Source: Patiria pectinifera (taxonomy: Eukaryota; Echinodermata; Asteroidea; Valvatida; Asterinidae). From it: a DNA stretch of 64,000 nt. The stretch's first letter is position 1. Every line of letters starts with the position of its first letter. The notes below the pieces were generated by a model. The model was not told where the DNA came from. It ran no database searches and saw nothing but the letters and a program-made list of their open reading frames with translations. Below, piece by piece: positions 34,001 through 63,054 of this stretch. The position numbers and the translations under genes were made by a program. Location of the stretch: positions 263,770 to 327,769 of the forward strand of contig CM057142.1 in assembly GCA_029964075.1 (NCBI GenBank). The letters run 5' to 3'.

Positions 34001-37000
34001 ATTTGGGGGTTAGTTTTTTTATACATGTAGCAAATGTTGTTCCACTGACCTGTTTAAAGTTTTATGTTCATTGATGCTGGAAAACAAACACTAAAAAATG
34101 CTGTCCTTGTAGTCTGGCTCCCTGACCCTACTTCAGACAAAACGGAGCAATTTATAGACGTCGGGGAATTGTCAGGTCAGGGAACCAGACTAGCTGGCTT
34201 GCACCCATTCATGGATGTGTAACTGATAGCAAACAAAATGTGGAATAACTAAATTTGGTAAATTGGGGGCGGTGTTTGAAAAAAGGCATATTTTTTCCCA
34301 ACGATGGTCAGCCAACAATCATTGGAAATTGATACAAAAACTCCACTTTTCTTGAAAATGACAGCACACCAGGTGCCATGATTTCACAGAATGCTTGAGA
34401 CTATTATTCACTAACAGTCGAGTAAGGTTTTTCATAATAATTTGGTAGTTTTTGTTTTTGTTGATGTTTGCAAATGTTGTATATTACCCTTAAGAACAAG
34501 CAAATCCTGGCATGTGATAACTGTAAACTTACAGAGGCCCCCAGCAATGGCAGAAGCATTGAACCAGCTTACATTAATAATAATGATCATAGAGCAGTTG
34601 CTTTGCACAACAACTGGCAGGTTGTTTTCGCCATTACTGGGGGCCGTTGTAAGTGAACTATGATCACATGCCTGGATTGGTCTACATTGTATACCGTATC
34701 ATAACACCTCACCCACAGATTCTGTATCTTGATTGCCCAACAGAGAGTCACATGGCATTTGCTATTTGTACTTTGCTATTTGTATCTTGCTGTGCACAGC
34801 CAAAAAGACTATAAAACAGCTCAAAAATTACTACAGCATAGCAACCAACGTAGCAACCGGAGGTCTACGTGCTCATGCATACGGGTGTGCATGTTGCGTG
34901 TATTGTTCCAATGCGCTATGAAGTTGGGTTCAAACATTTCATGAAGGGGCAATCTGGATAAGTGCAAGTTAATTTTCAACTAATCTAATACCCAAATAAA
35001 AGTACATTTTAATTAGATTTTGGTTAAATCGATCAATAATCTCTCAAAATCAAGCATAATCTGTGGGAGAGGTGTTATAAGACAAATATTGACTGCTTTA
35101 ACTCGTGTTGCAGTAAAACTAGCCTCCCTCGGTGATCAATGGAGGGTTCCATTTCCTTTGGCTATGCCTCCGGAAAACAGAACGCTCCATGGATCACCTC
35201 GGGAGGCTAGTTTTACTACACCCCTCGGAGCAGTCAATATTTGTGTAATATTGCTGCCTTACCTCATATATGTACCTGCCATAGTAGTTATACAGATATG
35301 GATCACTGGGACGCAACTCTAAAGCCTTCAACATGTGCTCCTGTTTGAGAGACATCCAAACAGACATGTGGTCAAGACACGTTTGCCGGTTAATGGGATT
35401 ATAATGAACCCTCATGTACAGGCACCAAAAGGGAGAGTTACAAAGTTGGAAGGTTGAATCTCAGTATGGTTCCTATTTTGACTCGGGTACCCAACTTGGA
35501 AATTCAGTGCGGCTTTTTGAAGCTACAAGTTTTGGTGCAAATGTTGACACACCGAATCCAAAAATGTGATGGTTGTTACTTGCAACATTCCTATCCGCTC
35601 CGTTCACAAGTACCCCCTCACCGGCAAAGAAAGTACAGTTGGGGGGTGACCGACTGACGCCATCTTGCCTGACTGCAATTTTGCCGCGACGCGCAGTCGT
35701 ACCACTGCGTGAACAAAGTACAAATCCCCTGGTGTACATGCATCACACACAAGGAACGGTGCGCGTCAACCAGCTAAATGTCCCGCCCATGGGACGTCGT
35801 TGCTAGGTAAAAGGGCGCCCTCTTTTGTTGGTGCACGGAGCCCATAGGTTCTTTTAAGTGAGCATTTACAGGTGCTTTTTTACCACTTTCGAGAGCCCAA
35901 TTGGCGGGACACACCTCGTGTGCTACTTTTTCGCGAAAGTATAGGGCGAAGTACGCTCGACATATTTTATTCTAAATGTGCACAAAGCCATTCCGTCTTT
36001 GCATGAATGTCAGGCGTCGGCGGCAATACGTTCAAATGTCTTCCCCAGTGGTCTCTCCCAACTCTCCCTTTCTTACCGTTGAGGGGGTACTTGTGCACAT
36101 TCAGAATAAAAAAAATCTTGCATTGATCCTTTCAGTGAGGCTCTCGAAAGTGGTAAAAAGCGCCCTCTTGTGCACAGAGCCCGTGACCAGACTTGTCTGT
36201 ACTCATGGCCTGTGATGCTGGTTACACTGAAGTGCTCATAGGAGGACGTCGGTATCCCGTAGATAAAGGCTCATCACCTTAAAGTCATATCCCAGCTGGA
36301 TCTTCTCTTGATTGGAGACGTAGTCTGTGGCCAGACCAATCAGAAGGCTGTACCACTTGTGAGTGTCGGCGTTGTTCTCGTCAATTGACATTGCAGTGAA
36401 TGCGTAGTCTTTACCTGAAATGAATGCACAATGAAAGCAGGGTGGAGATGCAATGAAAATTAGGAACTCAAAAGAGTTGAAAGAATCTGGTACAATCTGA
36501 GGTGTAGGTTGATTGATGTTGCGCTCTGAAACCATTGGTAAGTACTATGCCATAATAACTTTTGCTGGTCCAAGAGGGCCAACAAATAGCGCTCTTTGCA
36601 CCCGACTGACTGACTGACTGACTGACTGTTACTTGTGAATTAGACTTGCTGAGGTCTCATCCTGATGTATAAGTTTACCCCACAATGACAATGGGATAAT
36701 CCAGCCCATTTTTTTTCTCGTGGAGAAGCACTGAAAAAAGTAGTGCCCACTTGTACCAAAAGGAACCAAAAGAAGGATAACAAAGAGCAGTGATGATAAC
36801 AATATACAGGGTGGATAAAAAAACCGAAACCGAGATATTATTGCTAATTGGAACAGAAGTAGGGCACATGTGAATCAAAGGGAGATATCCTCTGTTAGGA
36901 TTGAATCTCCTCTTTAAAATGACACCCTGGTCTCATGTCATTACATTCACGGTTGACTGAGCAGTGACCAATTTTATGAAAGGGTCTATTGAGAGAATTG

Positions 37001-40000
37001 CGCCGCTTTTCAATTGTGGTTTGTGTCATTTAATTTCTGACAGAGTGAAAGGCTATGGTTGCCAATCAAGGAAGGTGGGGAAAAAAGAGATTTCACCATG
37101 AAAAGTGGCGCAAGTCTCTAAACAGACCCTTTCATAATGTTGGTCACTGCTCAGTCAACCGTGAATGTAATGACATGACCAGGGTGTCATTTTAAAGAGG
37201 AGATTCAACCCTAACAGAGAATATCTCCCTTTGATTTACATGTGCCCTACTTCTGTTCCAATTAGCAATAATACATGTATCTCGGTTTCGTTTTTTTCTT
37301 ATCCACCCCGTGTGTCTAGGCCGGCAGAAACTGTATCATGTGTCCCAAATCTACGGATTGTTTTCACATTTTCATGCTGCTCTGGACCTAGAAGTGTCGT
37401 CTATAGCCTGACAAGCTGCATGCAGGAAAAGAGTTCCAGCGAATAGCAATTCTGAATGAATTTTATGTGCTTTGGGACCATTTTTAATAGGCTTACGGTA
37501 CCTTGTTAGAATCATTTTTAATAGTTAATATTTACAGGCATCAGCATTCTCAACCACGCATTATTTCATTTCATTTATTAAATTTCATTTAAAACTCAAT
37601 ATCTAGAGGTCAGTAGTTTTAAACAGAATGCTCAAAGCCCTACGTGTACCTTCAAATATCAGTCTCTTCTTGTTGGTGTCATCACCATTCTTTGTTGCCA
37701 CGTCTGACGCTAGTAAGTGCGCTTTGGCAAGCCGCCACATGAAGTGAACGTTGTCGGAATACTGTCAACAAACAAAAACAGAAATATCAGTGGAAAATAT
37801 GACACCTGCCAAAACATAAAACATATAGTGCAATATTACCTCGGCGTACATGCTACAAGAATAATTAAGACTTTTTCTCCAAGAAGATATTTTGCATTGT
37901 GTTAATTCGGGCGATTCACAATGCAGTGCGCCACCAAGAGTTCGCCACGGAGAGTCCATTTTTCAAATTTTCGGTCGACAAAACATGGCTTATTTGAACG
38001 AGTGTCAGTAGACAACTTAAGCTTATTTGTTATAGATTGGGGCACAGCGTTCTGCTGCCTTACAAAAAAAAACACCACCATATTGATAAAGAGAAAAGGG
38101 CAAAAAGATACTCGAATCATACGCTTACGAAACTACTGACCGGAAAAACTAACAATTTGAAATGTCCCGCGCTGCAAATTTGTCGACCTTTTCCCACAAT
38201 GCACTGGGAAAAATTAACTCTCCATGGCAAACTCTTGGTGGCGCACTGCATTGTCAAACGCCCAAATGCTCCTCTCACACTCAAAATGCACCATTAAGAA
38301 GATGGTACTTTCCACAATGGGGACAAGTAGTGTGTCCAGATTGGGCGATTCCAAAGTTAGCACGAACAGTTACCATGGTTACACACAAAACAGTCATAGA
38401 CAACATTCTCAAATTAAATTTCCCAGACGTTCCCAGGCTGCAGGGGCATTGCAAGACTGATCTGAATGAGGTGTGCATCAACCTGCAAAGTCTGTAGGAT
38501 TTTTTTCCTGGTCCACCCACCATTGCAAAATCAAATAGGGGTCAGGGAGTGTTGGGGGTGTTAATGTTACACCCCAAGTATGGCAACGGTCCCAACTAAT
38601 GTTGGGACTGACAGTCCCAACAATAGTATACAAATATTGAGTTGCTCAGAGTGAAATGGGAGGAATATTATCACAAGGTAAAATCTGGACTTCTCCATTT
38701 TACGAGGAGAAGCAGAGTAAACTGGAAAAGTCCAGATTTTACCGAGCAATAATATTCCTCCCATTTCACAATTTAAAGCCACTCAATATTTGTTTTATAT
38801 AACTGACATACATGTATAGATCCTTGTCATTTGATATATTTGAACTCTTTTCAAAATTTCACAACAAAATTTATCGGAAATGTATTTCTCTCTTCCAAAC
38901 CACCCCTTCACGAAAAATGTTTGAACCCCACTCCGTAGTGCTGGCTCTTTAGAACAATACGAACTACGCGCAACGCTGAACGCGCACACCAGCATGCCTT
39001 TGCACACAAATACCGCATCTTGGAACAAAAATGATGCTAACTGTTCAATAGTATTTCCCATTCCCCATGGGCGGATAGTACTTTTTGAGACCCGGCGTGA
39101 ATGGGAGTAATAACGAATGTCACGTGATGTGAGTTCCACCAATCAAATGACAAGGATATGTATGTCGGTTATATAATTGGAACTACCCTATGGACCATTG
39201 CCATCATTAGGGCGTAACATTAATAACAGTCCAATGCAACAAGGTCCCACAGACTTTTACATCTGTTGCACTATACTGCACTTTGCAGGGTTCGGGCTAT
39301 TGGTGCTGAAACATACTGCACATACCTGTAACCTTTTTGCTAATAACCTATTGAGTGCTGTTTCCTGTTCCTCGTCTGTCCCCAGGAATAATGTGTCCAT
39401 TTCCCTCAGGAATGCCACCATCTCCAGGTTAGTTTCGCCTTCAAATTCCACCGATTCCTCTGCATCCTTGTATAGGAGAGCTTCCGGTGGTGTGGTGAAC
39501 CTACAAGTTGTGGTACAAGAATAAGCAAAGTTAAAATCCCTCTAAAGAGAGAGAGGAGGTCGGGAAACCCATTCTTCGAGCAGACGCAATCTTTTGCTCG
39601 TACCCACCGCCCTTAAACGTTGTAATCTTGCCTCACTAAAAAGAACATCTCCAAAATCGAATCTGTCCAACATCGTGCTGCCCAGTATGTCATGCTGCCC
39701 AGTATGTCATGAACAACTTCTCCAGAGACAGCAGTGTCAACACCAGGCTGAGTAACCTGAGTTGGGACTCTATAACATCGAAGAGCCACCTCCAAAGTCA
39801 CACTCATTGTCCCTATAACATCGAAGAGCCACCTCCTAAGTCACACTCATTGACATCCCTGCCAACCAGCAAATTCCAGTCAACTCATCCACCAAAGGCA
39901 ACAGCCAAAAACTCCTTGTTCAATCCACCCGTTCAACCTTACTGAAGGGCTCCTTCTTCCCAGACACCATCCGCCTGTGGAACTCACTGCCCCAGAAAGT

Positions 40001-42856
40001 TGTTGAGTCACCAACCCTGGATATCTTCAAGACCAGTGTGTATGGTGTCACCTTCAGCTAATCAACCTTGAACCTGCCCCAAAATAGCTGTTTTTACTTG
40101 AACATATATTTGTCTTTTTATGCCTTGAGTTATGTCTGCATTAGCCCCATAAATGTGGCCTAAGTACTGGACTTCATCCGTACAAGTGTCCAGTGCAATC
40201 TAACGCAAGTTTATAGTAGGCCTACTCCCTCCTGATGTCATTTCCCTTTCAATGAAATCCATTCATAGGGATGAACTCAGGAGGGAGGACAATAAACTTG
40301 CAAAAGCGTCCAGATTGTGCTCGACAGCAGTAAGCCACATTTATGGGGCTATGTCTGCACCTAATTGCTAATTGCACTTCAACTAATGTGCGAGTATACT
40401 CCAGAGAAGGTTTCTGCACAGATGATGATGATGATGAATCAATGATACTTTCATCAGAAGATATTGAAACCAGCAACTCCTGGATTCTCGATAGCTTTTT
40501 AAAAAAAATTAATAAAAAAATAAGTAAATAAAACCCGACTGACCCCGAAAATTAAGATCAAAAATTATGCTAACCCATTATGCTATCAATAATCAATAAA
40601 GACAATGTTGTGACTGTAGATAAAATTGAATACAGTCGAGTCTCGTTAATACAAACTCGTTTGGACCTAGCCAAATTGTTTGTTATATCAGAATTTTGTA
40701 TTAAGAGGAACATCAGTCCCATTTATTATGCACATAAATGCACAGTCAGGACTACAGCTTTAGTTTATGTTTGTTATAACCAGAAATTTGTATTAACAGA
40801 GTTTGTACTAACGAGATTCGACTGTATTATGATTTTTCATACGAAGTGGCTATCGTTACGGCAGCCGTTGTTTAGCGCCCTCTACGATACTTTTTTGATA
40901 CGCACGCAGGTATATAATTATTTGTTTCCCCACGTTTTAGCGAGCAGTGCGACAGCTCAGTCGATAGAGGGTAGGATTTTGCACCGCGAGGTCGCGGGTT
41001 CGCATCTCAGTTTTGCACTCGAATTTTTTTCCTTTTCTAACCTGAGGCTTTGGAGGATTTTTTTTAAAAGGGAAATAAAGTCCGAATTTCATAATGTTCA
41101 AATTCAATTTTTTAAAAGTTGCAGTACTACCGTAACGATAGAAAATGGGAAATGCGTTGAGGCTGCCGTAATGATAGCCAGTGCGTTTTTCTTAGGCAGT
41201 GGATATTTTGCCGGAGACGGCAAACCTTTAGTAAACGTTAGTTTGCCGGATATGCACTGAACATGCGCAGTTACTGTTTTTTTGTACTTGAACATTTTCC
41301 GCTGACAAATTTTAGTCTGGCTCCATGCCAATATTATCGTTGTAACCTCGTATTCACAAGATGGGATTCAGACCATTTTATAATTTTGGACTTTATTTCC
41401 CTTTTAAAAAAAATCCTCCAGAGCCACAAATCTGAAAAAGAAAATGTAATACTCTGCAATAAAATGTTTGAGACATGTTAAAATAATAAAAGAAGAATAT
41501 TCTTATTTATTTGGGGATAGGAAAAAAAACCTTAAAAATGTGGCGGGGCTCGGGATCGAACCCGAGTCATCCCGCTCACTAGACCCGTGAACGTGGCTTG
41601 TAAACTACGCCACGTTCTTGTGTCATTTTGAACCTGGCGAAATTGTCCCTCTGACTCCCTCCGTTACACACACTGGATGTTATTTTGCCCATGTACATGT
41701 AATAAGTACTCACATATGAAGCTGTCTTGAAATCTGTTTGTACGTCAAAACTTGCATTTGACGAAATTTGAGGAAAATTCTGGCCCCGATTTTCCGGTTT
41801 ATGAAGTCCTGCTAGCTGCCATTTTCTCCCAAGTGACGCATGCGCATTGCGTTTTATTGTACCGTCCTTCGTATAATTCTACGGCTGTTTACTGTCGCAG
41901 CTAAAAGAGACATCGTTTTAGACAAGTTTCAAGTCCTTCCTCTCTCACCGCACCGCACGCTGGAGCACGTGCGCCCACGTGCGTGAGCGCACACGTGATG
42001 AGCCGAGCAGCCAATCGGGTGCGGGGTTTTTTTTTCGGGGTTGCGACATGAAACAGCCGTCAATCTGTCTCAGCGACTCGTCCGGGGTCATTTGTCAGGG
42101 TCACTTATCGTGTTAAAATGAAATTTCTGTACACGTTCGTATGGGTCTTTACTGATGGGCAAATTTCGTCGAAATTACACAGCATAAACAATCGGACGGG
42201 CAAATTTAGATTTCTAGGTGAGTACTCAACACCCATACGGAATTATGTAGCCGGATCGATTTTCGCTAGGTTCAAAATGACACAAGAACGTGGCGTTGTA
42301 TACAACGCCACGTTCACGGGTCTACCCGCTCACTAGAGCCTTTTGCTTAACCACTACACCAAACGTGCTTCACAACTTTTGGTGGGAATTCAATACATCT
42401 TATAATTCAGCCCTATCTTAAAGAGTACAGCGCCCTCTGTTGATATGGATTGCCACCGGCAAACCTTTAGTAAACGTTAGTTTGCCGTCATTACCTCCGG
42501 CAAAATATCCACTATCTTTTTCATAGGCCTATTTCAAAACATATTAACACTTTGCAAAATTACCCTTCATAGGCTTCTTCAAAGAATTCATCGTCATCGT
42601 CTCCACTGCTGGCGTGTATTGAGATAAAGCCCGAGTTGGTCCTCTTGATTGAAGCACCTTGCGCCGTCAGTGACTCTCGTAATTCCCGCCACTCTCTCTG
42701 AAGTGCCGCAATGGCCTCCGTCAACTTGTCCAATCTCGAGTGCACGGACGTGGTTTGTGATCGCAGCCGGTAGGACACAACCGCGCCACTGACGCCCACC
42801 ATGATCCCCATGCCCAGAGCGGGCAAGATTTCTTTAAAATGTAAATTTGAAAACAT
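31016..42856 (-). CDS. RMDN3: Regulator of microtubule dynamics protein, RMDN3/PTPIP51 type (complete, eight coding exons)
   Basis: Minus-strand join 42856-42564, 39500-39326, 37761-37650, 36414-36278, 35340-35263, 33546-33394, 32378-32298, 31066-31016; about 359 residues, all phases consistent. RMDN3 is an outer-mitochondrial-membrane TPR protein that tethers mitochondria to ER VAP proteins. The model shows an N-terminal membrane anchor (residues 10-31), a short coiled coil (about 37-70), an acidic FFAT-like stretch (86-97), and a C-terminal TPR-like helical domain with signature pieces YSDNVHFMWRLAKAH, ADTHKWYSLLIG, ALELRPSDPYLYNYYGR, ALENFLKAEALQPQF and KKAVAWFQTA. Human RMDN3 is longer (470 aa, as recalled) because of a longer acidic linker. 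RMDN2 is an alternative, but being head to head with GCHFR favours RMDN3 orthology or a pro-ortholog. Confidence 0.9.
32298..32378 (-). CDS. RMDN3: RMDN exon 7
   Basis: Twenty-seven codons between acceptor gaacacag and perfect donor gtaagt: CYLQKRDTKKAVAWFQTAVG then IPGNSAD. This aligns with the penultimate human segment [20 protein letters not shown], including the conserved Trp. Confidence 0.87.
32934..32971. repeat. Perfect 16-bp inverted repeat
   Basis: cggttactcacgttac, loop gaaaat, gtaacgtgagtaaccg. No mismatch. Intronic in RMDN (intron 6). Confidence 0.85.
33394..33546 (-). CDS. RMDN3: RMDN exon 6
   Basis: Fifty-one codons after acceptor ccttttag: VATMSWILRKAAAALYGEPP, then GTIDEALENFLKAEALQPQF, ending ALYVGK. 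It is equivalent to the human block that starts VSHLSWLEKK and ends VYISK. The donor is the weak GT at 33393-33392 (gttggc). The frame runs on 10 codons to a stop if the intron is not spliced. The phase-0 match to exon 7 (K then CYLQK, human K then CYREL) supports splicing here. Confidence 0.88.
33951..34493 (-). mobile_element. TTAA-type MITE, family E (copy 2)
   Basis: Inverted copy of family E inside RMDN intron 5. Ends ttaaagttaatacaacattg and caaatgttgtatattaccct. The internal block ccctgacc...ggtcagggaaccagac matches copy 1. Confidence 0.7.
34700..35250 (+). mobile_element. Composite nonautonomous element A (copy 1)
   Basis: Part 1 (34700-35082) has ends ataacacctcacccacagat and atctgtgggagaggtgttat. 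Part 2 (35083-35250) is a hairpin with gcagtaaaactagcctccct against gggaggctagttttactaca and caaatattgactgc against gcagtcaatatttg. Both parts co-occur at 53190-53748 (inverted) and 58148-59382; a partial copy is at 38870-39140. Confidence 0.75.
35263..35340 (-). CDS. RMDN3: RMDN exon 5
   Basis: Twenty-six codons between acceptor caaacag and donor gtaagg: EHMLKALELRPSDPYLYNYY then GRYIYE. This is a TPR-type helix pair equivalent to human [20 protein letters not shown]. A composite MITE ends only about 15-20 bp beyond its donor. Confidence 0.92.
35590..36190. mobile_element. Element B cluster
   Basis: At least two overlapping B-type pieces: acaagtaccccctcaccggc ... gcgccctcttttgttggtgc acggagccca, then ttaccactttcgagagcc ... 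ggctctcgaaagtggtaaaa and gtgcacagagccc. In RMDN intron 4. Confidence 0.6.
36278..36414 (-). CDS. RMDN3: RMDN exon 4
   Basis: Acceptor atttcag, donor gtgatg. Encodes KDYAFTAMSIDENNADTHKW and IGLATDY ... IQLGYDFK. It matches the family block with the invariant H-x-W-Y (here HKWY) and G-x-x-F/D-x-K. Ends in phase 0. Confidence 0.92.
36807..37310. mobile_element. Fully palindromic MITE, CAGGGTG family (copy 4)
   Basis: TA-CAGGGTGGATAAAAAAAC left and gtttttttcttatccacccc right. The arms pair almost end to end (ggaacagaagtagggcacat against atgtgccctacttctgttcc; aatgtaatgacat against atgtcattacatt). In RMDN intron 3. Confidence 0.85.
37650..37761 (-). CDS. RMDN3: RMDN exon 3
   Basis: Acceptor ttgacag, donor gtacac. 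Starts in phase 0 with YSDNVHFMWRLAKAHLLAS, a near match to the conserved F-L-W-R-L-A-R-A helix of the family, and ends with one base of a Gly codon. Confidence 0.92.
37908..38263. mobile_element. MITE with ggcgattcacaatgcagtgc ends
   Basis: Left arm cacaatgcagtgcgccacca agagttc pairs with right arm gaactcttggtggcgcactg cattgt (minor mismatches). RMDN intron 2. Confidence 0.75.
38631..38793. repeat. Stem-loop element, arms of about 70 bp
   Basis: caaatattgagt ... gaaatgggaggaatattatc ... ggtaaaatctggacttctcc on the left pairs with ggaaaagtccagattttacc ... aatattcctcccatttcac ... actcaatatttg. RMDN intron 2. Confidence 0.8.
38870..39140 (-). mobile_element. Element A, partial copy
   Basis: Inverted fragment sharing the block accccttcacgaaaaatgtt tgaacccc...tgctggc...cgcgcaac with the other A copies. 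Lies in RMDN intron 2. Confidence 0.5.
39326..39500 (-). CDS. RMDN3: RMDN exon 2
   Basis: Acceptor acttgtag, donor gtatgt. One base plus 58 codons (FTTPPEALLYKDAEESVEF ... LNRLLAKRLQ). This is the linker followed by the first helix of the TPR-like domain, aligning with the human helix just before LVYGSRQDFLWRLARAY. The downstream part continues in a cryptic open frame into the intron, which should not be taken as coding. Confidence 0.85.
39630..40065 (+). mobile_element. CR1/L2-like LINE 3' end
   Basis: Broken reading frame: KNISKIESVQHRAAQYVM near 39640, then FFPDTIRLWNSLPQKVVESP and TLDIFKTSV near 39955-40045, the C-terminal signature of CR1/L2 reverse transcriptases. Contains a ~46-bp internal duplication (ataacatcgaagagccacct at 39771 and 39817). 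Antisense in RMDN intron 1. Confidence 0.78.
40134..40357. mobile_element. Short palindromic MITE
   Basis: tgtctgcattagccccataa atgtggc at left pairs with gccacatttatggggctatg tctgca at right; acgcaagttta against taaacttgc and ctccctcctga against tcaggagggag lie inside. Confidence 0.7.
40633..40826. mobile_element. Pogo/Tigger-like MITE, TA-flanked
   Basis: TA-cagtcgagtctcgttaatac ... gtactaacgagattcgactg-TA. About 24-bp terminal inverted repeats with TA on each side. A single related end, attaacgagagtcaactgta, occurs near 57957. Confidence 0.75.
40850..41480. mobile_element. Foldback element with tRNA-like insert
   Basis: Nested inverted repeats: tggctatcgttacggcagcc against ggctgccgtaatgatagcca, and tttggaggattttttttaaa agggaaataaagtcc against its reverse complement at 41385-41425. 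A tRNA-like box pair lies at 40946-41019. Confidence 0.65.
40946..41019 (+). pseudogene. tRNA-like sequence (A and B boxes), probably SINE-derived
   Basis: agtgcga and ttgcact could form a 7-bp acceptor stem (one G-T) around cagctcagtcgatagagg and gcgggttcgcatctcag, at tRNA length. The anticodon stem does not pair, so this is not a working tRNA. Confidence 0.4.
41545..42345. mobile_element. Terminal-inverted-repeat element with tRNA-like arms
   Basis: cactagacccgtgaacgtgg c...acgccacgttcttgtgtcat tttgaacc at 41578-41634 recurs inverted at 42270-42336. A near-perfect T-arm/B-box (ctcgggatcgaacccgag) lies at 41552-41569. The interior is CpG-rich. In RMDN intron 1, ending about 220 bp from exon 1. 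Confidence 0.65.
42286..42315. repeat. Perfect 30-bp palindrome, no spacer
   Basis: gaacgtggcgttgta followed at once by tacaacgccacgttc. Confidence 0.92.
42564..42856 (-). CDS. RMDN3: RMDN exon 1: membrane anchor, coiled coil, FFAT-like motif
   Basis: ATG at 42856-42854. Encodes MFSNLHFKE, a 22-residue hydrophobic segment, an amphipathic stretch (RLDKLTEAIAALQREWRELR) and ISIHASSGDDDDEFFEEAYE. It ends with two bases before gtaatt. The order membrane span, coil, acidic motif is that of vertebrate RMDN2/3. Confidence 0.88.
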
Positions 42857-43234
42857 GGTGTTTGAGAGAAAACAGTAAAGTTACGCATGCAAAAACATGT
42901 CAAGAGGATCGCGATGATCGCGATGAGATCCGCGTTAATATCTGGCAATAGTCTGGCCCCTTTTTAGTATTTGTACTCATAATATACGATATGAGACTGG
43001 TTACTGATCCTACTATCTCAAGTTTGTCGTTGATGGCAGCAGACATTGTCAATAAGGCCCACACGTACACAAGATCAGAACAATCCGGCCGCGCCGCGCC
43101 AGCAGCTAGCTGATGATCGAGGGACTACGCTTCAAAGTGCTGCAATTTACTACCGCAATTCAGTTCAAGTGTGTTTATTCCGCTGTAGTCTCGTATCCTC
43201 CTAAATATTAATGCGTTGATGAACTAACCTGATC
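42857..43234. promoter_or_regulatory. Bidirectional promoter region, RMDN / GCHFR
   Basis: Only 378 bp separate the divergent start codons. The stretch holds both 5' UTRs and any shared promoter. It has CpG-rich patches (ccggccgcgccgcgcc near 43087) and two adjacent copies of the palindrome ATCGCGAT (42908-42915 and 42917-42924) close to the RMDN start. No TATA box is evident. Sharing of regulatory elements is inference from geometry. Confidence 0.6.
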
Positions 43235-43270
43235 ATGCCGTACGTGTTTGTGAGCACCCAGATAAGGCTC
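43235..43270 (+). CDS. GCHFR: GFRP exon 1
   Basis: Twelve codons MPYVFVSTQIRL, ending exactly at a gtaagt donor. The human N terminus is almost identical in pattern, and Met-1 needs no upstream extension. Confidence 0.93.
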
Positions 43271-46200
43271 GTAAGTATGTGAATAGTGTTTGTCGATCGT
43301 CGAGTACAATGTAGGCTGCAGTTGCTAGGCCGTTCATACCCTATATACGGGGCTTGCTACCCTTGCTCTGAGCTGTATAAATAATACACAGCTCTATTAT
43401 TTCTATAGGCTTACATGGCAAGTAATCAACAATGTAATTGACAACAAATCGCAATCCAAAATTAATAGCATAGACGTTAATGGCGAATCCTTTTTCCCGC
43501 CCACCTCCTTTTTTTTTTTAATCAATATACCGGTCATGCCGGTAGGCCTAAGCTATTGTCTTTTTATTTGTTTCCAACAAAATTGTAGGTATGTAGAAAG
43601 GTTGACGTCTCCTTTGGACACAATTTTGTATCAATCAGCAAAAGGGTCGAGAAAATGGAAGAATCCATACGTACGCAGAAAAAAAAGGATCCTCCTTCAT
43701 TTTTTAATAAAGTACTGGAAAAAAATGTTGTAATCTTATCCCCTTCAGCCGTTGTGTACAAAGCATTTCCTAACAAAATTGGAGGGAAAATTCAGCCAAC
43801 CGATCACCACTTACCTGCCGCCAAACATCCAAATTTTCATCTCACCTTGTGATTTCAACCAAGAGGAATCCAGGAAAGAGTGGACATGCGGAAAAAAATT
43901 GGTAAAAATGTGTTTTTGGAGCACATTTTGCATGCACATGTAGTGCAGATCTGAGTTGAAGCAGCCAGTCAAAACTGATTGAAGTGTCTGGAACAGCGGT
44001 ACGTTATACGCATGACATCGATAACCATGACGTCGCATGAGACGTCGCATGAGCTGGCCAATGATAGTGCAATACGTCATTATGAATATTTATTTTCTCA
44101 TGAATATTTAGTTTATTTCAATGGATACTTCAAATACGTCCAAAGATTGATCATTGCAACAGCGATCGTGCGCGGCCTAGCGGTTAAGAGACTCGTGTAT
44201 CAAGCAAGCGTCCGAGGTTCGAATCTCGATGAAGTGACTGATTGATAAATAGAAACTAAGGAAAGGAGGGGGTGAGAGTAGAGGAGGGAAAGTGGAGGGA
44301 ATAACCATAAAAGAGGTAACTTTTGGCGCTAGAAAATTAATTGAAAAAAGTGGTAATCAGATAGCCGAATTTTTCCGATATACGAAGAAAAAGTGGCGTC
44401 AGGTTGCTACATTTTATCCAAAGCCCGGACGAATAACTATTTTGTTTTTACTTGGCCTAATCAAGCAGACCTTATTAATGGGACTAAATGCTATTTGTAT
44501 TTTGCAAAATGTGCTTTTCAGTACAAAACAATACTAGTAAAAAATGGGACAAATGTCCTAAGATTGTTCTCAAACATTTTTTTTTATCAACCCTTTTTTG
44601 ACTTTGGGTCCAAATTCATGCCTAATAAGCATAGGCGTCGCCAGGATTTTTCCAGAGCACATTATTTTCCCAAATTCCTTGTACTTTCTCATTCTCAATT
44701 TATCATTTTTTGGAGGGTGGGCGGAGGGACATTTGCCCACCCCACCCCCATTGACACCCCTGCAGACCCCCATGTTGTCATGGTTGTTAACTGTCCATTC
44801 AATTAACAGCAATATGACTTTTCACCTCTTTTACAACATGTATTTTGATTTCCTTTATTTTGTTTTCTCCTTTTTTTCTTTTTCTTTTTCTCCCTCCTGG
44901 CAATACCCATGCCGATAAGTAAATAAAAAGACTTTTTTGTAACAAATTTATACCAATACAAACAGAACGACCTGTGGACATCGATTTGATGAAGATGTGT
45001 TTTGTCCAAATTTAAATGTTGCTTTGTTTGACCTCTTGTTTGCCGCTGACAGGAATGTGGCCCAACAATTTGCGGCGATGAGCAGTCAGACCCTGAGCTG
45101 ATGCAGTACCTCGGGGCAACACTCACCAAACAGTTTGGAAACAACTTGTAAGTAAGCTTGTTTTTCCGAGTCCACATTTTGATCATGAATGAGCTACCAT
45201 TTCAACAGTTTTTGCAATAATTAAACAGATTGAAACTGAAATTTCATTGACCATTCATATTATGCACAAAATATGACATACAGCAATTCCTAACAGCTTT
45301 TACTTGATTGGGATTAGAACCAGCAACCACTTGCTTACAAGTGCAGATGTCTTAACCACTCACAACTAATTACTGTTGTTATTATTTATTCGGCCAAATT
45401 ACAAAATACAAGCAATCCACAAAAATAAACTAAACAAAAACAACCCAATCCAAGCTGGCCAGAATTGACAAAAGTATAATAAAACACTGTGACTCGAAAG
45501 CCTGCTTTGGCCAGATGGTCGAGTAAAGAGTCGTCATTTTTTTTTAAGTAAAAAAAAAACCATGTTTCTCGTCCCCGCCCGCTTCCTTTTTGGAGGCCGC
45601 CTGGATTTTTTTATTATTTTTTATTTTTGAAAAATGTAGTAAAAAACACCGAAAAAGTCTACAAATTCATCGGAAAATAAATACCAATACCAATACAACT
45701 CTAAATGACACTGTAAATATGTTCAGTTCTCTTGTCCAACTTGCCTTTCATTTTTAAATGTGTCTTTGAACAGTGGAACACCAGTGGTTGCAGGAAATTT
45801 TGAAAAGGCGGTCATCTTGAAAAAAATTAAAAGCCCCGCTTCCTCCCTTTTTAAAAAAACACCGGACGAGAAACATGTTGTTTTTTTTACTCGGCCTAAA
45901 CACTGGGCATACAGTGCTTTTTTAGGTACATGTACCTTCATAATGTAAAATTCAAAGTGTTTTTGGAAACTAGTGCAAATATCACACTTGACGCCCAGCC
46001 GCCAGAAAAAGAACAGCTCTTTTACATAAATATTTTATCTTAAAATAGGGTGGCAAAGATGTGGGAGCAAACATCAATACTTGATATATTAGACATCCTT
46101 TTTCATCAAGAATGCTCAGCCTTTAGTGGTGGGATCTAAATCCAAATTTTTCAACATTTGGTTTGAATTTCACTATTCAGTTTCGATTTTAGAAACTGGA

Positions 46201-49200: not shown

Positions 49201-52200
49201 GCAAAGTACCGGTACATGTACAGTAGTTAAAGGGCAAATTAGCATACTGTTCTAGTTTCTATTAGCCTACATGTACATGTACAAACTCTGAAGCTGATTT
49301 AAAAAAAAAAAAGATTTTGGCCATATGGTATTTCATGTCTGCAGAGTAATACATGTACCGGTACATGCACATGTATACCATGTACAGTATACTGTATGAA
49401 AGGATGCATGTCCAGTATATGTGTGATTGCAATTTGGGGGGCATTAGAATTCGCAATAACGTGCCAACAATGTGTCAGTTATATACACAATGTACGCAAT
49501 ACCAATTATTTGGCCAATGTGGTCCAAAATGGAACACGTTATTAGAGAATCTACACGCAAGCTCTTCGAGTAAGGCATTAGTTGCGTAGAATCAGGCCTG
49601 AGATTTTTCAAAATCTGAGAGAAAGACATTGTTAGTGTCGAACATGTTTCAGACATTTCTTCAATTTCCAGACTTTTTTTTATAATTAACAATCTCATCC
49701 CTGCAGAATTGAACCAATACTCTTTGACATGTACACCAATACTTTGTCTCTAGGGGTCGCCATTTTGAGCCAACACAATCCCCATACCATGCGCACAATG
49801 AATAAACTGTTAGTCGTAAGCTATCAGTGAAAGAGTTTAGGAGAAATTAATTGCTTAAGAAGATGGTCAAGTTTACAGTTGGCGACCTCACAGTCACAGT
49901 CAGGATGAAATACCCTACGGGCAAGTAGTCTAGAAGGTAAATAAAATATGCATGATGATGTACATGTACACTTTCTCTGTGTTTAAAGTGCCTTTTTCAA
50001 AACAATCTTTAATTAATAGCAAAACTGAGAAATAGTTTCAGAAATCATAGCAGTGATGGAAGTTTGATGGAATCAATATGTTGATAACAATTTATAACTT
50101 CATGCACACATCGGAAAGACAGAATTGTAAACATGATATAAAAGCTCGAAAAAATTTGTAATGAAATAAACAAAATACACAATATACCGGTAGTTCATGC
50201 TAACAACAAACAGGCCTATTTGTAACCCCATAAATTTGAAGCTCAAATAGTCTTTCCCTTTTAACAATTGAATACTAGTAAATATCTACATTGTATCAAT
50301 ATGAAATTAAACTTTTAATGATACTTTTTGTAAGCTCGGTGGGAACAAGCAAATGAGTTTTATTTAATATTGTTTCTTTTTTAAGTATTTCGAAAGCGTC
50401 ATAAAATGGTCTCGATCCCAAATCTTCCCAGGATATTGAAATTTTAAAGTTGGCAGGTAGGCTGGTGAACCATGATTCAATGTGGGGGGTTTTTGTCCTA
50501 AAAACTTGAGGGATTCCTATGTACAGCAGATATTTTGATACAAAGCTTGCCTGATAGGCTTCCCTAATTGGACAAATTGACATTTTATTGCGTAATCATG
50601 GCCAATCTCTACTCTCCCTGACCCACTCCACAGCCAGCAGTACAGCACCACAGACATACCAAGAAACGTGCTCGACAAGCTGGAGAGGCGGGGGTACAAA
50701 GTCATCTGCCAATCAGGAGCCGGGCAGACCATGATCTGGACCTTGCATAAGCCGCTGCCATTGGCCAATGGACCTTCAACCGAGGAAGGGTCACCCTAAG
50801 ATGCTACGGACCGTGTCTCTACCGGTACATTCTCTGGGATTTTTAGCTTGATGTACATTAAATGGATTGACTCAGAGGTTTTCTTCAAGATTTTTATATA
50901 AATGTATTTCGTCATATTATGATATTCCTTCAGTACTGACCTTGTGCGTAGCAGCCATTGTAGAGGGCAATGCCTTTGTTTTGCAGGGATATCCATGAGT
51001 GAACCTTGTGTGTATTCATTGTTACATTCATTCATTGGTATTAAAGTAACAAAAGATGCCCTCTAAGATGGCCGCTTCGCGTAAGGTGTATAGACTTGTA
51101 ACGTGATTAGATAATATTTTAGCAATTATGTAATGAATGTAAGCATTATGGAGACACAGAAGGCCTATACTAAGTAAGTCATGAAAAAGAAAGATGTACT
51201 AAAAGATATACAGTCAGTGTTTGTCCAGGAGAAATCTTTTCATGGAATTCTTCCAGCTATCAAATGAAAAAGGCCAATTTCCACCAGAAAAAGAAACACT
51301 TTTAAAGGGAAGATACAACATTTGCAACATTACAAAACAAAATGATCAAATTATCACAAAATACCTTGCTGGATTGTTAGGGAATGACAGTCTAAAGCAT
51401 CCTGTAAAATCGGGGCTCTTGGTGTGCTGACATTTTCAAGAAAAATGGTATTTTTCCAACGCTGGTCAGCCGACCAGCGTTGGAAAAAACTGGGTTTTTT
51501 TTCAAAACTGCTCCTAATTGTTCATAATTACTTATTCCATGTTTTCTTTGCAATTGATTTCGTCAACTGTGAAGGGGTACAAGCCTACTAGACTGATTCC
51601 CTGACCTTACAATTCCCCAAAGTCTGTAAATTCTCCGTTTCATCGTAAGTGGGGTCAGGGAGCCAGACTTCAAGGACATAATGGGTTTTCTTGGTTTTTC
51701 CAACATCTACAAGCCCAAAACGTGAAACAAGTCATTTTAACAATATTTGCTATGATATACTAATCCTCTGAATCCATTTATTTCTGAAAATTGCAGCAAA
51801 AGCAAATGTTGTACATTCCCTCTAAGACATTTCTTAACACAGACATGGCATGCTTATACAAAGATTGAAACTAGTGCATTCCTGCTCACTATAGGTACAT
51901 CATTTTTTTTTGAAACTAGGATTCTTCCAAATTATATTAATGTGATATATATTGCGTTTTGTCTCATTTGATAGCAAAATTTAACTTTAGCACTGCTGAG
52001 CATTAGCAATTAACTATGAGTACTTCTATTTCGAGGTAAAACTTGCCAAGTTGCCAAAATCTTCAGCATTGCTAGAAAATTACAATTAACTGTGAACGTT
52101 TTTTTTCTCAGGGTGATACACCCAAAAGGCTCACACACTCTTGTTTTACTATACTCCCGAGGACAATGCTTTGTGTTTCCCTTTGTCCCTGTAATATAAC

Positions 52201-55200
52201 ACTGTCCCATAGACTAAGCACACAAACTTACTACAGAAGATGGTTTCCAACAAAAGACCCAACTCCTGAGGACTGAAAGGATCTGTTGTTTTCCCTTTGT
52301 GTGTCGGTCCTCGGGGGTTTATGTAGAACATTCCAAAACGTGTGTGTGAATTGATTATTTGTCTCTTGGCAAAATTGACCAACATCCGGCTGTTTCGGAA
52401 TTTCAATTCCAAAGATAAAGTCAACGAAAGCGCATGTGGAACAGGGTAAAATGTCACGTGGCTGTTTTGCATTGGTTACGCCACGAAAGGCTAATCAGCA
52501 TTAGAGGAGACAGTCGCACAGTTGCCAAAAAAGTGGAATTTAATTATACATCAATGGTGGATCCAGCATATTTACGGAAAGGGGGCGTGCCGAAAATGGA
52601 GGCGAAACCCAAACATACAAGCGGGGCACATAAATTTTGAATTGATTAAATAACCAGTTTACAGCAGAAGAAACAGGCAAAAAAAAAGACAGACGTTCCC
52701 CCCCCCCAAAAAAATACTAAAAATACCAAAAAAAATACAAAATGTCAAAAATAGGGGGATGCGCGCAAACTCCGCCCCCCTCTGGATCCACTACTGTACA
52801 TTTATTCAGAGGCAATCAAGAAAATACCTGTACATGTACCTTTAAAGCAAGAAACCTAATAGCATTATTTTAAGGATTCTCTAGATCAAAATACTTGTTT
52901 CCTTTTTTTGGTTACAACTTTTTGCACTTTTGAGACATATTTTCGTTGCCAGGGTAATCCCAATGTAACCGTCACTTTGTTCCCATTAACTGATACCTGT
53001 TTTATTTTAAATTCTTAAAATATGTTGAGCAATTTTTTTTGTTATTATTTACTTACACGTAGATTTAGTTGTGAACTTCTGTTACCTTTAATTTTAATGC
53101 ATGGAAATTCTAATTTTCCTGTTATGAATTTTTACTCAGATAATAATCGTCAGTCACGGTATGGCTTCTTTTCTTCTGTTCTTTTTGCTTATATTGCCTG
53201 TTATACAAATATTGACTGCTTTGATGGTGAAGTACATAAACTGGCCTCCCAAGGTGATCCGTTGAGCATTCTATTTTCCCCAAGGCTAGGCGAAGCTGAC
53301 AGAAAATAGAATGCTCCATGGATCACCAAGGGAGGCTAGTTTTACTACAAGCTGTCAATTTTAATTTTATACATGTTATAACACCTCTCCAACAGATTCT
53401 GCTTGATTTTAAGCGATAACTGATTAATTTAATTGCAACAATTAAAATGTACTTCTATATGAATATAAAATTAATTAGAAAGTTACTAGCACTTTTTCCA
53501 AATCACCCCTTCACAAAATGTTTGAACCCAGCTCTGTGGCACTAGTGCTTGGTAACAGTACGCGCAACATGCACGCCCGTATGCATTTGCACACAATACA
53601 GGTTGCTATGGGTATAGTACTTTGGTTGCTATAGTAATAGTACTTTTGGCTGTCAGCTGTGCACAGCAAGATAGCAAAAATATTGAATGCCATGTGACTA
53701 GCTCTCGGCCAATTGAGACACAGAATCTGTGGGATGAGGTGTTATAAAATGAACTACTGCCCTAAGCATGCAGCAGACACACACAGAAACACACAGCCGT
53801 GAATTTCCCTACACCCGAGGACAATGCTTTGTGTTTCCCTTTGTCCCTGTAATATAACACTCTCCCATAGACTAAGCACACAAACTTACTACAGAGGACT
53901 ATTTCCAACAAAAGACCCAACTCCCGAGGACTGAAAGGATCTGTTGTTCTCCCTTTGTGTGTTTGTCCTCGGAGGTTATGTAGAATACGTGCACACCCAC
54001 AGTCGTTTTATCCCTATACACTGTACTTACAAGGACTCCTTATTGTTTCCTTCTTTTGTTCCTATTGTTTGTACTCAAAACTTTTTCTCGACACGTCCCA
54101 TAAGGTTTCACGAAAACCTCCCGAGGACTTGGCTCAGGTCATCAGGGTCATTGTTATTGCACTCACGGTAAACTTGTTCCTGCCCCTATCAGACTCAATA
54201 ATGTTGGACCGTGAACCAGTCTACTTGCAGAGCAGATCTGTTCGTGCGCCCAAGCAGCCCAAATTAAAGGCTTTTATTTGGCAGAGGGATGTAGACTCCT
54301 AAAAAAAACATACCAGCTGAAAATGCATTAGGAGAAAATATTTAATTTGTTGAAGAGCGTCGACAGTACATGTACATGTTTATGGAAAGGCAGTTTTAAA
54401 ATGTTAAGTGTTTACGGTATATTTTGTGACATGTACATGTACATGTATTTATCCCAAAGTCAGGATTGTGGGACAGTATTGTAAAATAGGACAAAATCAT
54501 GCTTGAATTTAAGTGAAATTGTTCATATATATACATACATGTGCATACCCAATATATTTGGAGTGTACACCTAGTGGTATCATTATGTATTTTTGAAAAT
54601 TTGGCTAATTTAAGCAAAAAACATGCATTATATATTTCTATTATGGTGTATATATATCTGCTATTAAATGTACATGCCGATCCAGTTTAAATTATATCAA
54701 GTAGTCACTACATATTAAGTACTCACTATTCATGTACAATATGTTTTCTGAAAAGTACTGCACATTAAATTTGATAAAAGACATAGAGAAAATAAAGTCA
54801 TGTTTCATCTGTGCCAAATGTGTTTCCAGGATTGTTAATTCAATGAGTTAATGTTTGTAAATGTGAATAAAATATAATGTCATGCGTCTGTGGAAAATTC
54901 CCCCCCCCCCCCAACGATGGCACACCCCTTGCCCACAAGTCCAGCAGGGATAAGAAATGTTTTACCCCGTTTCCTTAAAAAAAGGACTAATGATTGTATG
55001 TTTTGCCAAAATTAAGTTTTAGAAATGATGCAAGGACAGAAATAAAATTAATTCTCAGAAAGATTGGTGGCCTTATAGTCTAAATGTGGTGGCTTTTTGT
55101 TTAATTAGTTAATCTGTGACTGCATAGTCTGCTGAAGAATACGGTAAAACAACAAGCTAATTCAGACAATGAAACCAACCCATCAAGATTGAACATTTTC

Positions 55201-56729
55201 CTTTTAGGGTGAGGTGCCGTTTCTATCCCAAATCATATAAAAATATACAAGTAGAACTACCAGCAAAATTTAAAAAAAAAAGGTTCTTGTATGTATTGAA
55301 GTAAGTCCATTAAAAAAAAATTACAATTTCAGACAACAAAATATTTTTTTTATGCAACTAATGTGTTGGATGTGTCTCCATCTTCATTAGATATGGGGAG
55401 TGTGGCCTAGTGGTTAGGGTTTGTGACTTGTGATCAGAGGGTCAGGGGGTTCTAATCAATCTGCTGGTCATATGTTGTGTCCTTGGGCAAGCCACTTCAC
55501 CCCCACTTGCCTCTCTCCACCCAGGAGCATAAATGGGTACCGGCATTAACTGGGGAGTAACCTGCGATGGACTAGCATCCCATCCAAGGGGGATAATGGC
55601 CTGATGGGCCCCATTGGCTCATGACAGACTGATCTCTCTCTGCTTTCTTTTATTATAATATTGTGGATTGCAGATCTAGTTACTGCTACCCTCATAGAAT
55701 TATGGACATTTAATTTGATTTGATTCATTTGATTTTTGAAGTCAAACTTCCCAGTCAAAGTAAGGAACTGTCTTATTTGTTCAGCCATTTTAATCGAAAT
55801 CAAGATAAAGTTGAAACACTCTGCCAATGTTGCAATGTTTACCACCTAACTGAGAATTAATTATCACAAATGAACAAATTGGCCTTCTGAACGCTACCCG
55901 ACCATATATTGTTGATGTACCCTAACGTGGCGCGGCCCCCAACATGGCACACTTTGATTTTTCGCCTGAAGCGCCTACCTAGAGCAAAAGTTTTAACTGA
56001 AAATTTCACAGAAAGTGAAATTTCATCAAGTGCTAAACACTCCTGTTCATAAATCGCGAGTTTATTTACCCGTAACAAAGTTAGAATAAAGACTTATTTT
56101 GGCGTGATTTTCCGATATTATTTTCAAGGGCAAAGTGAACCCTTTGAAAATGCCCCGAAAAATAAGAAAATAATTTTCTGACAAACATCTGGCTGGGTAT
56201 GTAAGTAGAGATAATAATTATTTATCAGAATTTATCAAGTTTACAAAAATTCTTAAATGTTAATTTGGAATTTTCCCAGATTTATTCAAGTGCGCCACGT
56301 TAGGGAACACTCCGCCAATTTGTGCCCAATTTCCGGACGCCACCGTTTTTGAATTTCGGATTAAATTTTATGAAACTGAAAATGTTCACTGAGGTTAAAT
56401 AGCAAGCATTAATAAGGTAAAAGTACTAGTATTTTACAGCATGAATTTCAGGTTTGTCAACAAAGAGGTTTGGCAACACTACATGAGGAAAGTCGGGTAA
56501 ACTTCGAAGTGCGCGACGTTAGGGAACACGATTATACCACCATATTTTTAAAAAAATGTTGGTGTTCTTTTTCTTTTCTTTCTGTAATAGCAAAGAATGG
56601 AGGTCAGAGTTGCTGCCTAGAGTGGTGCTGGACAGGTTGGAGGGCAGGGGTTATAGGGTCATCGCTGCAACGGGAATGGGTCAAACAATGGTGTGGACAC
56701 TGCACAGGAAACGTTTGGAGCTTACGTGA
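43235..56729 (+). CDS. GCHFR: GTP cyclohydrolase I feedback regulatory protein (GFRP) with two alternative last exons
   Basis: Isoform A: 43235-43270, 45053-45147, 50634-50799 (98 aa). Isoform B: the same first two exons then 56591-56729 (89 aa). GFRP forms pentamers that sandwich GTP cyclohydrolase I, mediating feedback inhibition by tetrahydrobiopterin and activation by phenylalanine. The shared half reads MPYVFVSTQIRL, ECGPTICGDEQSDPELMQYL, FGNNF, matching human MPYLLISTQIRM and GDEQSDPELMQHLGA. The C-terminal half carries VLD(K/R)LE and GQTM(I/V)WTLH as in the human protein (84 aa). Splice phases (0, then 2) suit both terminal exons. Divergent with RMDN and convergent with DNAJC17. Confidence 0.93.
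43271..45052 (+). other. GFRP intron 1
   Basis: Clean GT-AG. Contains a tRNA-SINE-like box pair near 44172-44226 (gcggcctagcggttaag, gaggttcgaatctcg) and AT-rich tracts. No exon seen. Confidence 0.75.
45053..45147 (+). CDS. GCHFR: GFRP exon 2
   Basis: Acceptor gctgacag, donor gtaagt. Encodes ECGPTICGDEQSDPELMQYL, GATLTKQFGNN and two bases of Phe44. The GDEQSDPELMQ block is the most conserved part of the family. Confidence 0.95.
46347..46647. mobile_element. MITE with atcagtccttctg ends (copy 1)
   Basis: tgaatcagtccttctg left, cagaaggactgatgaata right. Interior repeats of cgcacgcc/cacacgcct type. The right arm is shared in inverted orientation with 63753-63830. Confidence 0.65.
47796..48005. 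mobile_element. MITE with ttcgctcgtaccccc ends
   Basis: ttcgctcgtaccccctgccc tgcaaacagggcgctggt against accagcgtcctgtttgcagg gcggggggtacgagcgaa: 38-bp arms with few mismatches. Confidence 0.85.
48747..49004. mobile_element. Palindromic MITE, GGGCCCAATTTC(A)CAGAGCTGCTTAAGC type
   Basis: ccaggggccaatttcataga gctgcttaagcagaaa left and tttctgcttaagcagctctg tgaaattgggccctgg right; inner arms also pair (ccggccaaaa against ttttggccgg). Similar elements are, from memory, widespread in marine invertebrate genomes. Confidence 0.85.
50634..50799 (+). CDS. GCHFR: GFRP terminal exon A (proximal)
   Basis: Acceptor ctccacag; one base completes Phe44, then QQYSTTDIPRNVLDKLERRG, YKVICQSGAGQTMIWTLHKP and a 14-residue tail absent from human GFRP, ending TAA. 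The core aligns without gaps to the human C-terminal half (VLDKLERRGF, TGVGQTLVWCLHK). Confidence 0.93.
51040..51045 (+). terminator. Candidate poly(A) signal after GFRP exon A
   Basis: ATTAAA about 240 bases after the exon A stop codon, in otherwise unique AT-rich sequence. It would allow isoform A to terminate before exon B. Confidence 0.3.
51301..51825 (+). mobile_element. TTAA-type MITE, family E (copy 3)
   Basis: Ends tttaaagggaagatacaaca and gcaaatgttgtacattccct. Internal ctggtcagccgaccagcg palindrome. Lies between the two alternative GFRP last exons. Confidence 0.7.
52135..52335 (+). repeat. Dispersed repeat H (copy 2)
   Basis: Contains ttttactatactcccgagga, caatgctttgtgtttccctt and atagactaagcacacaaact, shared with 53810-53985 and, inverted, with 11300-11545. 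Confidence 0.7.
52552..52796. mobile_element. MITE with ggatcca(c/g) ends
   Basis: caatggtggatccagcatat at left and cccctctggatccactactg at right, with purine/pyrimidine G- and C-runs just inside both ends. Same family as 58330-58589. Confidence 0.65.
53190..53748 (-). mobile_element. Composite element A (copy 2, inverted)
   Basis: Hairpin part first (tattgactgc ... aagggaggctagttttacta), then the inverted body to gatgaggtgttataaaatg. Includes ttgtgcacagc-type and caacatgcacgcccgtatgc blocks shared with copy 1. Confidence 0.72.
53810..53985 (+). repeat. Dispersed repeat H (copy 3)
   Basis: Nearly identical to 52135-52335 over about 175 bp, including gaggactgaaaggatctgtt. Confidence 0.7.
55388..55660 (+). 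mobile_element. tRNA-derived SINE
   Basis: A-box-like gtggcctagtggttagg (about 55398), B-box-like gggttctaatc, body ccttgggcaagccacttcac, tgcctctctccacccaggag, cataaatgggtacc, and a distinct 3' part (gggataatggcctgatgggc). Confidence 0.8.
56591..56729 (+). CDS. GCHFR: GFRP terminal exon B (distal duplicate)
   Basis: Strong pyrimidine tract and acceptor ctgtaatag. One base completes Phe44, then KEWRSELLPRVVLDRLEGRG, YRVIAATGMGQTMVWTLHRK, RLELT, TGA. Same phase, same 20-residue distance to the invariant RG, and no stops. Over 32 aligned codons it shares 21 residues with exon A, yet 12 of the 19 shared non-Met/Trp residues use different codons. This pattern indicates an old duplication under protein-level constraint rather than a fresh pseudo-copy. 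Whether both exons are used cannot be told from DNA alone. Confidence 0.8.
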
Positions 56730-62516: not shown

Positions 62517-62632
62517 GGCCGTTTTCCAAACCCCGGCTTCGGTTTTGTCTCCGTCTCCGGCTCCATCCCCATTGCCATACTGCATGAATGACGCCATAGA
62601 CGGAGAACGAGACCGGGGTTTGGAAAATGGCC
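62517..62632. mobile_element. 116-bp inverted-repeat element at the DNAJC17 stop
   Basis: ggccgttttccaaaccccgg and ccggggtttggaaaatggcc (19 of 20 paired). The right tip overlaps the last base of the DNAJC17 stop codon. Confidence 0.75.
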
Positions 62633-63054
62633 TATGACTCCTCAGCATCTTCTCTGGCCATCTGCTCTATCAACCTCTGCCTCTCTGCATTCTGCCTCAT
62701 TCTCATCGATTCCAAACTCTCGTAATCCTTAGCCTGGGCTCCGCCCGGGTTGGAAGTCACAAAAGTTGAGCGACCTCTGTCGGCTTGCCCCTCTGTGGGG
62801 ACGCTATCGTCCTCGGGACAGACTCTTTTAACTCCGCCCACGCTTGAGAGTAAATCCTCAGCCGTTCGTAAGTTCCTCAAATGCTGTTCCTCAGCTGCAG
62901 ACGCATCAGTATGGTGGCCATCTTGTACGGTTGATTGTTCTACATATCTTTCCTCCTCGGCATGTTGTGGAGTGGCCTTTTTTTGCTGTCTGGCATTTTT
63001 CAACCTCTGTAGCACCATGGATTCAAAGTCGGCATCTGTTGTGGGGGTGGGCTG
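62632..63054 (-). CDS. DNAJC17: DNAJC17 last exon
   Basis: Acceptor attcttacag followed directly by another CAG (a NAGNAG site). It encodes QPTPTTDADFESMVLQRLKN, a charged linker, then DYESLESMRMRQNAERQRL and a stop TAG. Coding begins upstream of the internal ATG at 63018. The stop codon abuts an inverted repeat (62517-62632). Confidence 0.88.
   Translation of the reverse strand, partial: QPTPTTDADFESMVLQRLKNARQQKKATPQHAEEERYVEQSTVQDGHHTDASAAEEQHLRNLRTAEDLLSSVGGVKRVCPEDDSVPTEGQADRGRSTFVTSNPGGAQAKDYESLESMRMRQNAERQRLIEQMAREDAEES

Follow-up and report, generated by a model that had tools for sequence, protein, structure and literature searches.

The only GTP cyclohydrolase feedback regulatory protein (GFRP) gene, GCHFR, visible in the analyzed window, a stretch of 64,000 nucleotides from Patiria pectinifera, very likely carries a tandemly duplicated terminal coding exon, either copy of which (3A or 3B) could be joined to exon 2. 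The gene can thus probably make two forms of the regulator. A single pre-mRNA would be spliced from exon 2 to either 3A or 3B, each terminal exon would bring its own stop and its own 3′ end, and the outcome would be a 98-residue and an 89-residue GFRP that share their N-terminal half. The route we infer is alternative splicing combined with alternative 3′ ends. As to the two alternative terminal exons proposed in the earlier note, their homology, the one common exon 1 and exon 2, and the intact frames and stops could all be substantiated, while their use in transcripts is suggested by the sequence.

All four exons are on the forward strand. Exon 1 (43235-43270; MPYVFVSTQIRL), which is an addition to the earlier note, codes for just 12 residues and ends in phase 0 at a GTAAGT donor. 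It was matched by the human N-terminus in a tblastn search (E 0.014) and by a profile of residues 1-43 that contains exon 1 itself (E 3.3e-06). Exon 2 (45053-45147; ECGPTICGDEQSDPELMQYLGATLTKQFGNN) ends in phase 2, also at a GTAAGT donor, and was matched by tblastn with human residues at E 1.7e-11 and by the same profile, which likewise contains it, at E 1.9e-22. Together the two exons supply residues 1-43 and the first two bases of codon 44. The coding sequence of exon 2 stops at 45147 with TT directly before gtaagt, and both terminal exons begin with the C that completes the Phe44 codon, so that the identical phase claimed earlier holds for both. Exon 3A (50634-50799) continues for 54 codons after the split Phe codon to a TAA stop at 50797-50799, and exon 3B (56591-56729) for 45 codons to a TGA stop at 56727-56729, confirming that each has its own stop. 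Both joins are in frame, and the difference between 98 residues with 3A and 89 with 3B bears out the tails of different length. The spacing of 20 residues to the Arg-Gly pair was also reproduced: in both exons this pair is reached at the 20th residue after Phe44 with no gap. The interval between the two exons (50800-56590) contains interspersed repeats and no N.

After Phe44, 3A and 3B align without gaps and are identical at 21 of 39 residues, all of them within residues 53-82. The earlier count of 21 of 32 core residues is therefore right in its 21 identities, whereas the denominator compared here is 39; its statement that 12 of the 19 common residues other than Met and Trp use different codons was reproduced. 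With exon A as query, tblastn gave exon B an E of 6e-13, with E 0.63 for the following match in the window, and a C-terminal profile built without B gave it an E of 1.4e-18, the runner-up among 4144 frames (stop-to-stop, at least 8 codons, in the window) having E 1.7. By these measures the likeness of the two exons is not a matter of chance. The full-length products score 133.4 bits (E 2.5e-39) with 3A and 130.6 bits (E 1.8e-38) with 3B against the Pfam GFRP family (PF06399, cut-off 25 bits), both covering model positions 1-82 of 83, and a single terminal exon with its Phe still scores 56.4 bits (3A) or 54.0 bits (3B). In the PDB, exon 2 joined to either terminal exon matched every one of the four distinct GFRP sequences listed, from human and rat, with E no higher than 5.4e-24. 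3A and 3B are thus homologous terminal exons in tandem, with a common 5′ part, the same phase and their own stops. Scans with the GFRP alignment of prokaryote contigs (90 stretches matched the pattern) and of IMG/VR (19 stretches) yielded no confirmed relative, as expected for an animal protein.

Splice acceptors were scored with our own matrix built from the acceptor consensus, over the 3354 AGs on the forward strand. Among these, the acceptor of 3A comes 51st, that of 3B 118th and that of exon 2, for reference, 57th; among the AGs within 1 kb, 3A has the third best of 118, 3B the best of 112 and exon 2 the best of 99. These ranks agree with the good acceptors that had been noted before both terminal exons. 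The two exons differ in their 3′ signals: ATTAAA occurs 58 and 241 nt past the stop of 3A, while within 1.2 kb past the stop of 3B there is neither AATAAA nor ATTAAA, only weak variants, and the next AATAAA is at 1690 nt. Of the whole gene structure, this lack of a canonical poly(A) signal close to 3B is the least convincing feature. Possible RNA pairing was assessed by folding six pairs of stretches of about 500 nt against block-shuffled controls, a coarse method to which we give no weight. The three pairs involving the donor region gave 29, 40 and 35 of 40 shuffles as low as the real pair, the pair made of the regions upstream of A and upstream of B gave 0 of 40, and the other two gave 30 and 20 of 40.

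The aligned parts of 3A and 3B are identical at 67 of 117 nucleotides (57%), as opposed to 28% over the 100 nt upstream and 22% over the 100 nt downstream. A blastn comparison of both exons with 1 kb on each side gave a best E of 0.10 and nothing in register; by these comparisons the sequences flanking the two exons are unrelated. Agreement by codon position is 23 of 39 at the first, 29 at the second, and 15 at the third. The dN/dS comparison between the exons that the earlier note had proposed was run with a pairwise codon model, which returned an omega of ~0.03 (values as high as ~0.15 stay within 2 log units), with dS at saturation, and rejected an omega of 1 (2dlnL 25.9). Judged by this model, the pair has evolved under purifying selection, and the description of the copy as old and constrained is supported. 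Comparison with human GFRP gives 22 matches in 39 residues for A and 21 in 39 for B. When residues 44-83 are compared, the agreement is 22 of 40 for A with B, 23 for A with human and 22 for B with human, which puts the duplicates at about the same distance from each other as from human. In this stretch four positions unite A and B against human, five are shared with human by A only and four by B only.

These numbers bear directly on the possibility that 3B is what is left of a tandem copy of the gene, a terminal exon now unused or recently dead, which we regard as unlikely. The lack of a canonical poly(A) signal close to B is what such a remnant might show, and part of the likelihood analysis is lenient to it. 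In a three-leaf codon model with human GFRP as the third leaf, a shared clock and kappa fixed, one common omega gave lnL -345.1, compared with -357.7 for a neutral B and -359.7 for a neutral A, and when B was left free its omega was 0.018; times in the constrained fits lie at or near the upper bound because change is saturated. Under the shared clock a neutral B is thus 12.5 log units worse. When B had a time of its own, its neutral model came to lnL -347.4, only 2.3 log units worse, and assigned 0.75 neutral substitutions per codon to B; the penalty stays small because the saturated synonymous change can then be taken up by A. Against a dead exon speak the open frame, intact stop, good acceptor and identical phase of B, its almost equal match to human GFRP, and the absence of any trace of duplicated exons 1 and 2 in a profile search of the window. 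In decay simulations (4000 runs each; rates in neutral substitutions per site), an A-like start retained 21 or more human matches with B open in 5.5% of runs at 0.1 per site and 0.35% at 0.2, and an optimistic start with 26 human matches did so in 37% at 0.1 and 4% at 0.2. Neutral change on B beyond roughly 0.1 substitutions per site (A-like start) or 0.2 (optimistic start) is thus unlikely, which leaves room only for a short, recent loss of function of B. We therefore strongly infer that purifying selection has acted on exon B for the greater part of its history, and such selection argues that B is used.

Very unlikely, in our estimation, is that 3B is part of another GFRP-like gene or transcript whose 5′ exons went unrecognized because they are very diverged, unrelated or outside the window. 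Similarity cannot recognize every 5′ exon, and exon 1 with its 12 codons shows how short such an exon may be. Searches of the window by tblastn and with the profile of residues 1-43 (4144 frames) found the known exons 1 and 2 and no second copy of either, the next best profile match having E 5. There is no N in the interval 50800-56590, nor anywhere else in the window, and 3B shares its phase and the split Phe codon with 3A. A second GFRP gene was accordingly rejected as a candidate, and 3B does not appear to be the end of a second gene visible here. Hardly plausible is an assembly artefact in which exon B is a second allele left uncollapsed or was misjoined from another locus: the exons disagree at 24 of the 39 third positions and in 18 of 39 residues, far beyond what alleles show, their flanks are unrelated, and the order of the probable neighbouring genes fits that of vertebrates. 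Transport of exon B by a repeat was also considered and rejected, since self-comparison of the window (low-complexity filter on, matches of at least 100 columns) shows no repeat over it.

The neighbours on both sides are probably those of vertebrate GCHFR, namely FAM82A2, which we take to be RMDN3, and DNAJC17, the latter by resemblance. A probable gene of the RMDN (FAM82A) family (36236-42856, reverse strand), of which two ORFs were examined, stands head to head with GFRP. The ORF at 36239-36535 (reverse strand) matches PF21033 (RMD1-3) at E 1.3e-05 and 25.0 bits, just below the cut-off of 26.7, and the ORF at 42560-42856 (reverse strand) was presumptively assigned to RMDN, the best Pfam match of its part 42563-42856 being SUKH-4 at E 1.5e-4, below the cut-off. 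Less than 400 bases (42857-43234) separate the apparent first codons of this gene and of GFRP, and this head-to-head arrangement suggests a common promoter region. On the other side, tail to tail with GFRP, lies an ORF (62632-63018, reverse strand) that we tentatively liken to the C-terminus of DNAJC17; against Pfam it gave nothing above cut-off (best DUF2563, E 0.035), and against the PDB no convincing match (best E 0.46, unrelated). A single ORF of 995 codons at 19800-22787 encodes a Patched/MMPL-type sterol-sensing protein and may, we presume, be the Dispatched neighbour. The order FAM82A2, GCHFR, DNAJC17 is reported for Xenopus tropicalis, anole, chicken, mallard, mouse, and human, with FAM82A2 located elsewhere in zebrafish (PMC3229566), and a goat gene list has DNAJC17, C10H15orf62, GCHFR, and RMDN3 consecutively and DISP2 further along (PMC10763158). 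The order RMDN-GFRP-DNAJC17, which is probably kept here as in vertebrates, supports one orthologous gene that ends before DNAJC17, and if both neighbours are read correctly, exon B lies where the 3′ end of that gene would be expected.

In mammals, two GFRP pentamers flank a decamer of GTP cyclohydrolase I, and phenylalanine binds a pocket of GFRP near the interface (PMC7750480). By coupling synthesis of the cofactor tetrahydrobiopterin (BH4) to the levels of phenylalanine and BH4, the small protein GFRP is linked to monoamine and nitric oxide chemistry (PMC7750480). In the portion consulted, the same source treats mammalian GFRP as one protein form, and the single GFRP contact it names is that of L40 with R235 of the enzyme, with no residue of exon 3 mentioned, so that it gives no backing to the earlier note's statement on a contribution of the C-terminal region to the pentamer and the interface; the corresponding extract of PMC3234217 names no GFRP residues. 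The position of human L40 falls in the common exon 2, where the protein described here has Phe40. A GFRP orthologue, gfrp-1, is reported to be present in Caenorhabditis elegans and any such orthologue to be absent from Drosophila (PMC4423366). The vertebrate proteins (rat 1JG5 and 1IS7; human 6Z80 and 7ACC) belong to the same family over their full length and have the same conserved motifs, and the mammalian tails are shorter than those of both forms predicted here.

With the N-terminal half in common, the two predicted forms differ in the C-terminal half, which comprises a helix, two strands, and the tail. Residues kept in A, B, human, and rat are F44, P53, R54, V56, L57, D58, L60, E61, R63, G64, V67, G72, G74, Q75, T76, W79, L81, and H82. 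A and B differ at all of residues 45-52 and at 55, 59, 62, 66, 69-71, 73, 78, and 83, and after residue 83 the tail reads PLPLANGPSTEEGSP in A and KRLELT in B. Structure prediction for the exon fragments gave a mean pLDDT of 66 for A (54 residues) and 72 for B (45 residues), both with a helix-strand-strand arrangement. Foldseek placed GFRP first for the short, low-confidence model of the A fragment at a non-significant E of 0.2, and found no GFRP for the equally short and low-confidence B model in the best 50 of 86 PDB matches; these fragment models carry no weight in our reading.

What the two C-terminal halves might do is a matter of speculation: the forms could differ in pentamer assembly, in binding of GTP cyclohydrolase I or in the response to phenylalanine and BH4, or could mix within one pentamer. 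A more far-reaching scenario, which we put forward tentatively and consider rather doubtful, is that two subunits made through alternative last exons have been kept since early in the phylum or before, that they form separate or mixed pentamers, and that splicing would set the response of GTP cyclohydrolase I to phenylalanine and BH4. If this were true, some animals may control BH4 synthesis by splicing. The two C-terminal halves, if they have indeed diverged under selection, would also be a natural mutational experiment on the residues that govern the ligand response and the pentamer.

The earlier note knew of no description of this arrangement. For GFRP itself this agrees with the open-licence literature, where none of the matches listed described a duplicated last exon in GFRP/GCHFR, and an annotated isoform may exist in databases; in other genes, however, terminal exons that are duplicated and used alternatively have been described as a class (PMC9013439). 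In the account of that source consulted, the Drosophila genes pip and PGRP-LC have mutually exclusive terminal exons or 3′ variable regions, those of pip being tandemly repeated and homologous, and the choice between them is tied to competing RNA structures and treated under untranslated regions (PMC9013439). The likeness to GFRP lies in the 3′-terminal exons in tandem, of which in the Drosophila genes one is chosen per transcript. The genes themselves are unrelated, however, and GFRP has two coding exons, predicted alternatives for which the folding gave no clear pairing. The mutually exclusive internal exons covered by the same account (PMC9013439) likewise involve tandem exon duplication and alternatives of equal phase, but the GFRP duplicate is the last exon, and the choice between its copies would therefore also set the 3′ end. 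GFRP is thus a new case, with its exon choice predicted from the genome, within the known class of duplicated alternative terminal exons.

Searches of the window with Rfam and ARAGORN returned nothing. The interspersed repeats in the interval between 3A and 3B lie at 51302-51825, 52142-52328, and 53199-53985. The first is a copy of a repeat of about 530 bases found also at 5521-6045 and 33960-34494, the copies being 74-78% alike. A shorter repeat occurs twice in the interval (52152-52328 and 53810-53985; 93% alike) and is 83-84% alike to 11308-11471. At 8663-10556 the window contains a tandem segmental duplication, where an alignment of 626 columns between 8678-9300 and 9929-10553 shows 99.4% identity and one between 8663-9928 and 9296-10556 shows 90%; this is a recent local amplification.
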